The position numbers and the translations under genes are program-made. Under the pieces are notes generated by a model, which worked only from the letters and a program-made list of their open reading frames with translations, did no database searches and had not been told where the DNA came from. 64,000 nt of DNA, from the NCBI RefSeq assembly GCF_900111765.1, contig NZ_FOIB01000008.1:310001-374000 (forward strand), given 5' to 3'. Of this stretch, positions 51,087-53,804 are shown piece after piece; position 1 is the stretch's first letter, and every line of letters starts with the position of its first letter. The stretch comes from Myxococcus fulvus. GTDB lineage: Bacteria; Myxococcota; Myxococcia; Myxococcales; Myxococcaceae.

Positions 51087-53804
51087 GTGAGCTCGCCCCA
51101 GACGGCCATCCCGTTCGGAAAGTACCTGCTGATCAAGCGGCTCGCCGTGGGTGGGATGGCGGAGCTGTTCCTGGCGCAGCGTCCGCCGGATCCGGAGCTC
51201 GTGGTCCTCAAGCGCATCCTCCCGTACCTCTCGGAGGAGCCGGAGTTCGTCCAGATGTTCCTGGACGAGGCGCGCATCGCCGCCCAGCTGCACCACCCCA
51301 ACATCGTGCAGGTGCACGAGCTGGGGAAGGAGGGCGACAACATCTTCATCGCCATGGAGTTCGTGGAGGGCGTGGACCTCCGCCACGTGGTGCTGGAGGA
51401 GTTCAAGTTCGGGGCGACGGTGCCGTGCGGCGTGGCGGCGCGCATCTGCTCGCTGGTGGCGTCGGGGCTGGACTACGCGCACCAGAGCCGGGGCGTGGAC
51501 GGGCGCCCGCTGGAGCTCATCCACCGGGACGTCAGCCCGCAGAACGTGATGATCGCCTACGACGGGCGCGTCAAGCTGGTCGACTTCGGCATCGCCAAGG
51601 CCGGCGCGTTCATGGAGCGCAGCAAGCCGGGCGTCATCAAGGGCAAGTTCCTCTACCTGGCGCCGGAGCAGGTGTCGCAGGAGCGGCTGGACCACCGCGC
51701 GGACATCTTCGCGCTGGGGACCATGCTGTACGAAATCACCACCGGCAAGCAGCCCTTCTCCAAGCCGACGACGGAGGGAATCCTCTACGCCATCCGCTTC
51801 GAGGACCCGACGCCGCCGCACCTCTTGCGCCCGGACTATCCGCTGGAGCTGTCGCGCATCGTCATGCGGTGCCTGACGAAGGACCGCAACCAGCGCTACC
51901 CGCGCGCGTCGGTGGTGCACGCGGAGCTGGAGGCGTTCCTCGCGTCGGGCTCGCTGCAGCAGAGCCTGGATGTGGCCGACTACATCGCGCGGCTGATGGG
52001 CGAGGAGGAGGAGCGCACCATCCTCCACATCCCGGTGTCCAAGCCCGTGGGCCGCATGAACGCCACCGTGCCCATGGCGGGCAACCGGGTGCTGGATTCG
52101 TCCATGCCCCAGCGCCTGCCGCCGCTGGACGTCACCGGGCCCACGCTGTCCTCCACCACGCCCATGGCGGAGCCGGCGGTTGCTCCCGTGCCCGGGCTCA
52201 CCGCGCGCCCCACGCCGCGCCGCCACTCCGCGGACGGGCTGCCCGCCGCCAGCTACCGGGACGAGCCCGAGCCGGCCACGCAGATGGCGCGCCCGCGCGA
52301 GCTGCCGAGTGGTGCCCGGAGCGCGCCTCCCGTGGACGAGGACGTGGACTCGGAGATGTCCACCGCCGTGCGCACGGCGCCCACGGGGTACTCGGTGCTG
52401 TCGCAGCTGCGGGACGAGGAGGAGGAGGACGCCGGTGACGGCGAGTCCACCATCCCCCAGCGCAGCCGGGGCCGCACGCCGCCGCCCCCCGTTCGGCGCT
52501 CCAGCACGCACTCGGAGGTGGCCTCCTCACAGCGAGGCCCCATCACCCCGGAGCCGCTCACCGCGCCGCCCACGCCCGCCAGGCGCGCGGCGTCGGGGCC
52601 GCTGCCGGTGGAGCCTCCGCCTCGCGCCGTCGCGCCGCTGGAGCCTCCTCCCTCGCCTCGCGCGGCGGCGCTCGCGGAGGGCCCCGCGCCCCGCACGCCC
52701 ACGGATGCGCGCGCGCGCCGCCTGTCCTCCCCGCCCGTGGCCACGCCGCCGCGCCGCTCGCCCACGCCGGTTCCTCGGGACCTGGACGACGGCCCCGGCG
52801 ACATGACGATGCCCATCCGCCGCCAGTCGGTGGTGGACGCGGAGGCCTCGGTGTCGCTCACCACGCCCATGCGGCGCCTGTCGCCCCTGGACGAGGAGGC
52901 CTCGCAGTCGGTGTCGCTGACCACGCCCATGCGGCGCGTGTCCTCGGTGGACGTGGAGACCTCCGAGTCGGTGTCGCTGACGACGCCCATGCGGCGCATG
53001 TCCTCGGTGGAGTTGGAGCCGTCGGTGTCCATCACCCCGGCGACGGTGAGCCACCGCGCCGCCTCCCGGCCGATGATGCCCGCGGCGCGCGCCGTGGCCG
53101 TGGGGGACGACGACGACCACTTCCACACCGACTCCAGCCTGTCGGGCGCGCTCACCAGCCCCACGGCCTCGCTGCGCGATGGCGAGGACGACGAGTCCAC
53201 CATGGGGTACGGCGGTGGTTACGACTACCCCGACACGAGCGCGACCCCCGCGCGCACCGGCCCGCGAGGGCTGGTGCTGGTCGTCGTCGGCGGGCTGCTC
53301 CTGCTGGTGCTGTTGAGCCTGGTGTGCTGGGGCCTCTACACCCGGCTCAAGGGCCCCACGCCCCTGTCCATCCCTCCGCGAGACCTCTCCCAGAAGGCGC
53401 TCGAGGAGAAGCCGTCGGCCGTCACGGTGCCGGTGCGCTCCGCGAACCCGCCGCCCGTCGCCGTGGCCGCCGCGCAACCCGCCGCGGGCATCGCCCCCGC
53501 GCCTTCGACGGCCGAGGCTCCGACGCCGACGGTCGCCGCCGCGCCCGAGGTCCCCGCGAAGGTCGAGCCCGCACCGCCTTCGCTGGTGGAGGTCCGCTTC
53601 GAGGGGCCCCCCAAGACGGTGCTGCGCCAGGAGGGGGGCGAGCGGCTTCCCGTCAATCGGCTCGTCAGCCTGCCCCCCGGCATGCTCCGGGTCGATTTTG
53701 ACTGCCCCGGCCGAAGGACCGGACGGGGGACGAAAGCCTACCTCATCGAGCAGGCGAACCCGGGTCCGCTCGTCCTCCCGGTGCCCTGCAAACCGCGTCG
53801 CTAG
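51087..53804 (+). CDS. transmembrane Ser/Thr protein kinase with tandem RRxS linker
   Basis: A 905 aa Hanks-type kinase starting at GTG 51087. Kinase domain ~10-285: LAVGGMAELFLAQ, HRDVSPQN at about 146, VDFGIAKAG, YLAPEQVSQ. A ~440-residue Pro/Ser/Thr/Arg-rich linker precedes one TM helix at about 728-751 and a short exported tail with a beta domain (TVLRQEGGERLPVNRLVSLP). In the linker, four spaced units (TPMRR with S, or IRRQS) place RRxS serines at 581, 599, 619 and 639. RRxS is a basophilic phosphosite, so they may be auto- or cross-phosphorylation targets (inference). All catalytic motifs are intact. Confidence 0.93.
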   Translation: MSSPQTAIPFGKYLLIKRLAVGGMAELFLAQRPPDPELVVLKRILPYLSEEPEFVQMFLDEARIAAQLHHPNIVQVHELGKEGDNIFIAMEFVEGVDLRHVVLEEFKFGATVPCGVAARICSLVASGLDYAHQSRGVDGRPLELIHRDVSPQNVMIAYDGRVKLVDFGIAKAGAFMERSKPGVIKGKFLYLAPEQVSQERLDHRADIFALGTMLYEITTGKQPFSKPTTEGILYAIRFEDPTPPHLLRPDYPLELSRIVMRCLTKDRNQRYPRASVVHAELEAFLASGSLQQSLDVADYIARLMGEEEERTILHIPVSKPVGRMNATVPMAGNRVLDSSMPQRLPPLDVTGPTLSSTTPMAEPAVAPVPGLTARPTPRRHSADGLPAASYRDEPEPATQMARPRELPSGARSAPPVDEDVDSEMSTAVRTAPTGYSVLSQLRDEEEEDAGDGESTIPQRSRGRTPPPPVRRSSTHSEVASSQRGPITPEPLTAPPTPARRAASGPLPVEPPPRAVAPLEPPPSPRAAALAEGPAPRTPTDARARRLSSPPVATPPRRSPTPVPRDLDDGPGDMTMPIRRQSVVDAEASVSLTTPMRRLSPLDEEASQSVSLTTPMRRVSSVDVETSESVSLTTPMRRMSSVELEPSVSITPATVSHRAASRPMMPAARAVAVGDDDDHFHTDSSLSGALTSPTASLRDGEDDESTMGYGGGYDYPDTSATPARTGPRGLVLVVVGGLLLLVLLSLVCWGLYTRLKGPTPLSIPPRDLSQKALEEKPSAVTVPVRSANPPPVAVAAAQPAAGIAPAPSTAEAPTPTVAAAPEVPAKVEPAPPSLVEVRFEGPPKTVLRQEGGERLPVNRLVSLPPGMLRVDFDCPGRRTGRGTKAYLIEQANPGPLVLPVPCKPRR
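52818..53003 (+). repeat. four tandem RRxS units in the kinase linker
   Basis: Units repeat every 18-20 codons: IRRQS, then three times LTTPMRR(L/V/M)S, each followed by an acidic (S)xxDxE(A/T/P)S segment. DNA within the last three units is also nearly identical, as expected for a recent local duplication. Confidence 0.85.

Follow-up and report, generated by a model that had tools for sequence, protein, structure and literature searches.

Introduction

Bacterial membrane kinases with phosphorylated linkers are already known, and they are the closest described counterparts of a locus in the predatory soil bacterium Myxococcus fulvus, where a Hanks-type Ser/Thr kinase carries a tandem array of short motifs between its kinase domain and its membrane helix. 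The gene lies on a stretch of 64,000 nucleotides (contig NZ_FOIB01000008.1, positions 310,001 to 374,000), called the window below. FHA domains are described as recognising phosphothreonine (PMC12077195). In StkP of Streptococcus pneumoniae, the linker is reported to be phosphorylated on seven threonines and to influence partner assembly, its exact length being uncritical for activation (PMC12077195). The linker of Mycobacterium PknB is quoted as binding FhaA (PMC12077195), Thr309 being the PknB residue given in another report (PMC4389566).

The window kinase shares with StkP the layout of a membrane Hanks kinase with a long linker that is disordered or, in the window kinase, looks so (PMC12077195). 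StkP differs by its PASTA ectodomain, and the available parts of that report mention no tandem motif array; the window kinase has no PASTA match in Pfam. PknB resembles it in being the nearest kinase domain of the PDB by sequence (chain 3f61, E 1.9e-39), and the linker phosphothreonine of PknB is described as recruiting an FHA protein. The activation loop of PknB carries Thr171 and Thr173, whereas the activation segment of the window kinase contains no Thr. The EPIYA region of CagA is likewise a disordered bacterial tail with a repeated phospho-docking motif in strain-variable copy number; it differs in that the motif is a Tyr motif, the protein is secreted, the readers are host proteins and the sequence is unrelated.

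The readers and the evolution of linkers are little understood in bacterial membrane kinases. The array is read here, tentatively and with confidence just short of even, as a clade-specific, duplication-amplified multivalent phospho-docking array acting chiefly through threonine. Its newness would lie in the amplification of a phospho-motif-like unit in the juxtamembrane linker of a bacterial kinase. A literature search in a limited collection found no paper on such a kinase-linker array, and none on Myxococcus xanthus with kemptide.

Results

A duplicated motif in the juxtamembrane linker

The array consists of four units spaced by 18, 20 and 20 residues (Table 1), as an earlier note on this DNA had described. 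Serines in RRxS context are found at S581 (RRQS), S599 (RRLS), S619 (RRVS) and S639 (RRMS), and each motif is followed by an acidic segment (DAE, DEE, DVE or ELE). The core LTTPMRR is present in three units, unit 1 having MTMPIRR instead. The DNA is nearly repeated, with in-register offsets of 54, 60 and 60 nucleotides between its four copies, in agreement with the local duplication that had been proposed. Tandem Repeats Finder (TRF) delimits a repeat at 52848-53018 with a period of 60, 2.8 copies, 87% match and a score of 244. This is the top-scoring tandem repeat of the window, where only three TRF rows score at least 70, all inside the kinase linker. Two features are absent from the earlier note: every unit also carries T-x-P-[MI]-R-R, and the linker contains three further RRxS motifs, at S381, S473 and S547.

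Residues kept within the units

Units of related kinases were found with T.P-based patterns, so that T, P and partly the following residues are constant by construction. The consensus is [LM]-T-x-P-[M/I/V/L]-R-[R/K]-x-S-x-x-[D/E], the Ser being present in most units. None of the 48 units, which come from 11 genomes, lacks T, P or the first R, and RR or RK is found in all of them. Ligands of FHA domains favour a hydrophobic residue at +3 from the Thr, and this residue is M, I, V or L in 48 of 48 units. The RRxS serine is kept in 40. The eight losses are alternate units of genomes G007, G016, G018 and G019, where Pro stands at this position while T, P and R are kept.

The codons of the cores vary synonymously; all four CGN codons are used for the first Arg, for example (tabulated for 47 of the 48 units). 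When seven close pairs were pooled, the ratio of nonsynonymous to synonymous substitution rates (dN/dS) was 0.08 in the cores, 0.19 in the spacers, 0.36 in the linker before the array and 0.19 after it.

The PknA-dependent phosphothreonine motif of Mycobacterium tuberculosis is described with acidic residues at -1, -3 to -6 and +7, Pro at -1 and +2, Leu or Val at +3, and Lys or Arg at +4 (PMC7164672). The T-x-P-M-R of the array agrees with it in Pro +2, hydrophobic +3 and basic +4 (PMC7164672), and all 48 units have this combination. It agrees only partially in the acidic residues at -3 to -6, its +3 residue is mostly Met and not Leu or Val, and the comparison is made across phyla. Acidic residues upstream (-1, -3 to -6) are found around T398, T455 and T705 and in the units of Corallococcus arrays; array units of the window type have only a Glu at -5, in some of them. 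The Corallococcus units EDTAARTLPL and DDGRSEPL both have acidic residues upstream, Pro at +2 and Leu at +3, the acceptor being Ser in DDGRSEPL.

Motif counts compared with chance

The 400-residue linker of the window kinase contains seven RRxS motifs where 0.53 are expected, a count reached in none of 2000 shuffles. Without the array, three remain where 0.37 are expected (9 of 2000 shuffles). T.P[MLIV][RK] is found four times against 0.12 expected. In three groups of Myxococcus and Pyxidicoccus linkers, RRx[ST] is enriched with or without the array (69 vs 9.4, 19 vs 3.9 and 23 vs 5.8), and Ser two residues past RR reaches 3.4 to 5.2 times the background. The enrichment is lower in Corallococcus linkers, where 26 motifs stand above the mean expectation of 12.2 and equal the shuffle maximum of 26; Ser after RR is just 1.2 fold. 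The number of RRx[ST] is nearly equal among ten linkers, seven in nine of them and six in one, which may be a coincidence of a few sub-clades. RR pairs, and likewise P(x)RR, exceed expectation in each of the four main groups, Corallococcus included (there 140 vs 80.8 and 105 vs 25.4, respectively). Three of the five distinct array units of the kinase family contain [ST]xP[MLIV], with a chance of about 0.005.

Conserved sites of the linker and the activation segment

Conservation outside the array was examined in 39 orthologue linkers aligned over residues 309-708. Close relatives are still included; L024, the partial L038, loci truncated at the edge of a contig and genomes that the set already covered were dropped, L024 because its DDDAESTAGY end does not fit the end pattern (it has RRPS at the 381 position). 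Threonine positions are conserved to at least 92% in 12 of 28 cases, against 2 of 34 for serine (Fisher p 7e-4). Typical sequences of the conserved Thr islands are ERT[IV]LHI, [ED]AT[VL]PL, P[AE]T[QL]MAR, STAV, [ED]ST[VI]P[QL]R and EST.G[YF]. RRx[S/T] at residue 381 is present in 39 of 39 linkers (S in 26, T in 13) and in 16 of 16 further, mostly redundant rows. Because of this invariance and of the enrichment in three groups, RRx[S/T] is a real motif of the kinase family, its best conserved copy lying outside the array.

Hanks-type kinases usually, though not universally, have a phosphorylatable Thr in the activation segment. Between DFG and APE or SPE, this segment is free of Thr in 63 of 63 rows of orthologues (the set is redundant); a 64th row, the distant kinase L031, has three. 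Thr is found in 71 of the 75 paralogues in which the segment could be located, and is missing from four. As the segment of the orthologues is devoid of Thr, the linker is a candidate for the main regulatory phosphorylation. The catalytic loop HRDVSPQN is identical in the 25 orthologue loci of the contig scan besides L031. In protein kinase A (PKA), the Glu of the RDLKPEN loop binds the substrate Arg. HRDVSPQN has Gln at this position, where Glu is found in 9 of the 84 paralogues. With this Gln, self-phosphorylation of RRxS is unlikely and another kinase would probably be needed.

Paralogues and FHA proteins

The 10.8-Mb genome contains 85 kinase-like matches to the window kinase including itself, that is 84 relatives. 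A linker of at least 40 residues before the hydrophobic stretch was found in 28 of them, to which the motif counts apply. These 28 linkers show no enrichment of T.P[MLIV] (6 found, 9.3 expected) or of RRxS (5 found, 4.7 expected), so that both were rejected as general motifs of the kinase linkers of this genome. Only [DE].T (69 found, 47.8 expected) and T.[non-P][MLIV] (80 found, 59.0 expected) exceeded expectation there. Seven of the 28 linkers contain tandem repeats, mostly unrelated in sequence. The paralogues L121 and L126 have large linker arrays, with DDEPTHAMSRPGRGDEVPTLR-like units and a 40-residue unit containing STVPEFSLS and SPTPRRTRTEG.

The genome also has 52 FHA matches. Multisite phosphorylation with recruitment of FHA proteins, as put forward in the earlier note, is plausible on this count. 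As FHA domains are reported to read phosphothreonine (PMC12077195), the RRxS serines that it had assigned to this role would be poor ligands; the TxPM threonines fit.

Distribution and origin of the arrays

The scan of genome contigs returned 26 orthologue loci, one of them the distant L031. Matches were found in 26 of 27 genomes by a genus-level search, and in 25 of 76 genomes by a family-level search with a Corallococcus query. The comparison of repeat number, proposed as a check by the earlier note, shows that it differs between species, with four units in seven and five units in four of the 11 array-bearing genomes. TRF arrays scoring at least 70 are present in 10 of 10 linkers of the window clade together with G007, G016, G018 and G019, in 12 of 12 Corallococcus-like linkers and in one of six Pyxidicoccus-like linkers; none is detected in nine xanthus-like and two other linkers. 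The TTPMRR array was seen in none of the xanthus-like, Pyxidicoccus-like, Corallococcus-like or Archangium rows examined. Absence from all orthologues, which would have counted against the earlier proposal, is thus observed outside one clade and not within it.

Myxococcus xanthus and its relatives retain only a SVSLTPATVNQR-like terminal piece, in most cases with one RRx(x)S-LD piece ahead of it. Two kinds of repeat occur in Corallococcus-like linkers: EDTAARTLPL-type units lie upstream in 12 of 12, and DDGRSEPLxSGPRRM-type units occupy the site of the Myxococcus array in 11 of 12 (TRF score at least 70). The latter have G, N or A after PRRM and lack the RRxS serine. The serines of the array had been presented in the earlier note as its phosphosites. 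A motif-bearing juxtamembrane linker stands; serine as the defining acceptor does not, being missing from 8 of 48 units and absent from the Corallococcus arrays. RRxS was thus set aside as the sole defining acceptor.

In a kinase-domain tree of 46 rows (L031 omitted; the placement of L063, with an end branch of about 10, ignored), the nearest named relatives of the window kinase are Myxococcus species. The LTTPMRR rows and the Corallococcus-array rows fall in different clades, with one change each against the other, the 24 rows belonging to neither group being uncounted. Because the clades are separate and the unit sequences unlike, the two types of array have seemingly arisen independently. 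An assembly artefact was rejected, as arrays are also present in the single-contig genomes G007, G016 and G018. An additional array with LTTPPRRNTSSELSSRAEP-like units lies earlier in the linker of G018 (L039), and more weakly in that of G007 (L041), with RRNT in place of RRxS.

Interpretation of the array

In the tentative reading given above, a short linear motif of the juxtamembrane linker, which is presumably disordered, would have multiplied by tandem duplication in one Myxococcus clade, purifying selection preserving the copies afterwards. The Thr of each unit (T574, T592, T612, T632) would be phosphorylated by the kinase itself or by one of its 84 relatives, the RR pair serving mainly as the +4/+5 basic determinant of the site. 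The phosphorylated units may form a multivalent platform for FHA partners reading phosphothreonine, with the copy number setting avidity or reach. Another kinase may use the RRx[S/T] serines as additional acceptors, which are less well conserved.

Several observations weigh against this reading. The sequences compared are related and not independent, and the eight units without the serine may go back to two changes within a single clade. The pairs used for dN/dS have branches in common, and the correspondence of repeat units across species was assumed in aligning them. Acidic residues of the array lie mostly 5 to 9 residues from the Thr and not just upstream. Without the array, the window linker has T.P[MLIV] within chance (2 vs 0.81 expected, 385 of 2000 shuffles). 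T.P[MLIVQ] is absent from the two outlying linkers L019 and L025, and the six Pyxidicoccus-like linkers show a small excess (12 vs 5.5, shuffle maximum 12). Two of the five distinct array units are devoid of [ST]xP[MLIV]. In the 39 linkers, invariance is about as frequent for Arg (12 of 34) as for Thr. The absence of T.P[MLIV] and RRxS enrichment in the 28 paralogue linkers also belongs here, and the repeats in seven of them fit a general tendency of such linkers to slippage.

This tendency is central to the main rival explanation, a near-neutral spacer of polyampholyte character driven by slippage, in which only composition and length matter. Such a spacer is somewhat unlikely. The variable copy number, the mostly unrelated repeats of paralogues, the lack of an array in nine of nine xanthus-like linkers and the spread of linker lengths (207-467 residues across the 39 rows) are what it would produce, and StkP activation is reported to be indifferent to precise linker length (PMC12077195). 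Left aside by it are the low dN/dS of the cores relative to the linker on either side, the constancy of the cores next to variable spacers, and the [ST]xP[MLIV] common to three different arrays. A wider proposal, which is unlikely, retains threonine and holds that the family lost its activation-loop Thr and moved its output to the linker as a multivalent phosphothreonine scaffold. Valency would be set by duplication of [S/T]-x-P-[M/L], independently in Myxococcus and (twice) in Corallococcus, the repeat number acting as a gain control for FHA recruitment.

It is quite unlikely that the RRxS serines are the acceptors of a basophilic, PKA-like kinase and set a threshold. The replacement of Ser by Pro in eight units that keep T, P and R speaks against this, as do the serine-free Corallococcus units, the weaker RRx[ST] enrichment in that group and the Gln of HRDVSPQN. 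In its favour are the RRx[ST] enrichment and the excess of Ser after RR in the three Myxococcus and Pyxidicoccus groups, the exchange of S and T at the invariant residue 381, the 40 units with serine, and the RRNT of the further array in G018. Very unlikely is a role of the RR-hydrophobic patches in phosphorylation-independent docking or membrane contact, with phosphorylation being incidental. It would account for RR and P(x)RR in all four groups, for the PRRM at the same place in the Corallococcus array and for the invariance of Arg, and it would explain neither why T and P are constant in the cores nor the Thr islands elsewhere in the linker.

For the proposed phosphothreonine docking array, related species with anything from none to five copies, and another genus with different arrays, offer a ready test of whether valency tunes recruitment. 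The invariant S/T381 and the invariant Thr islands are specific sites to examine in tractable Myxococcus.

Layout of the gene and protein

The product of the gene matches PF00069 (Pkinase) at residues 16-277 (E 2.7e-36) and has HRD (as HRDVSPQN), DFG and APE motifs, in accordance with a Hanks-type kinase. Pro, Ser, Thr, Arg and acidic residues abound in the linker, a composition that suggests disorder. The degenerate terminal piece of the array resembles the SVS[IL]TPATVNQR of array-less orthologues.

Table 1. Features of the kinase gene and its product, with positions in the window.
Feature	Residues	Position	Strand	Basis
Hanks-type Ser/Thr kinase gene, 905 residues, GTG start		51087..53804	+	Open reading frame; PF00069; PDB match; orthologues
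Activation segment, DFG to APE, no Thr, one Ser	166-194	51582..51668	+	Sequence
Linker, kinase domain to membrane helix	~309-726	52011..53264	+	39 orthologue linkers
PRRHSA, S381	377-382	52215..52232	+	39 orthologue linkers
STIPQR, T455 invariant in 39/39	454-459	52446..52463	+	Orthologue linkers
Array unit 1, MTMPIRRQSVVDAEASVS; T574, S581	573-590	52803..52856	+	Sequence, in-register DNA copies
Array unit 2, LTTPMRRLSPLDEEASQSVS; T592, S599	591-610	52857..52916	+	TRF, DNA copies, sequence
Array unit 3, LTTPMRRVSSVDVETSESVS; T612, S619	611-630	52917..52976	+	TRF, DNA copies, sequence
Array unit 4, LTTPMRRMSSVELEPSVS; T632, S639	631-648	52977..53030	+	TRF, DNA copies, sequence
Degenerate terminal piece, ITPATVSHRAASR	649-661	53031..53069	+	Comparison with array-less Myxococcus/Pyxidicoccus orthologues
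Membrane helix region	~728-754	53268..53348	+	Hydrophobic stretch taken directly from sequence
C-terminal small all-beta domain, presumed periplasmic, 76 residues	830-905	53574..53801	+	AlphaFold2 model

The C-terminal domain was modelled by AlphaFold2 with a mean predicted local distance difference test score (pLDDT) of 85.9. A Pfam search with residues 728-905 gave no family match, PASTA included, and the domain has no match in the PDB at E<=0.001. The Foldseek list includes CnaB and transthyretin-like beta sandwiches, below assignment level. PASTA or another known ectodomain was rejected and, as the best Foldseek hit reached only E 0.035 and a template modelling (TM) score of 0.47, the domain was left unassigned.

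Sequence records of the orthologues

Eight of the 26 contigs end inside the kinase gene (L008, L011, L014, L016, L018, L022, L026, L028), perhaps because GC-rich repeats disrupt short-read assembly; array copy numbers from such assemblies are therefore to be taken with caution. In L017 (Corallococcus terminator, 152-3193), a DUF218 domain (PF02698, E 2e-23) replaces the C-terminal domain after the membrane helix, which is either a domain swap or a chimeric contig. On a Corallococcus sicarius contig (L023), a 30-base stretch at 6946-6975 ends the reading frame. It resembles a Nextera sequencing adapter, the full 19-mer having no exact match, and on this resemblance the truncation is probably contamination. 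A Myxococcus-like orthologue was also found on a 767-kb contig of a record titled Comamonas sp. KCTC 72670 (L030), a label that is probably wrong.

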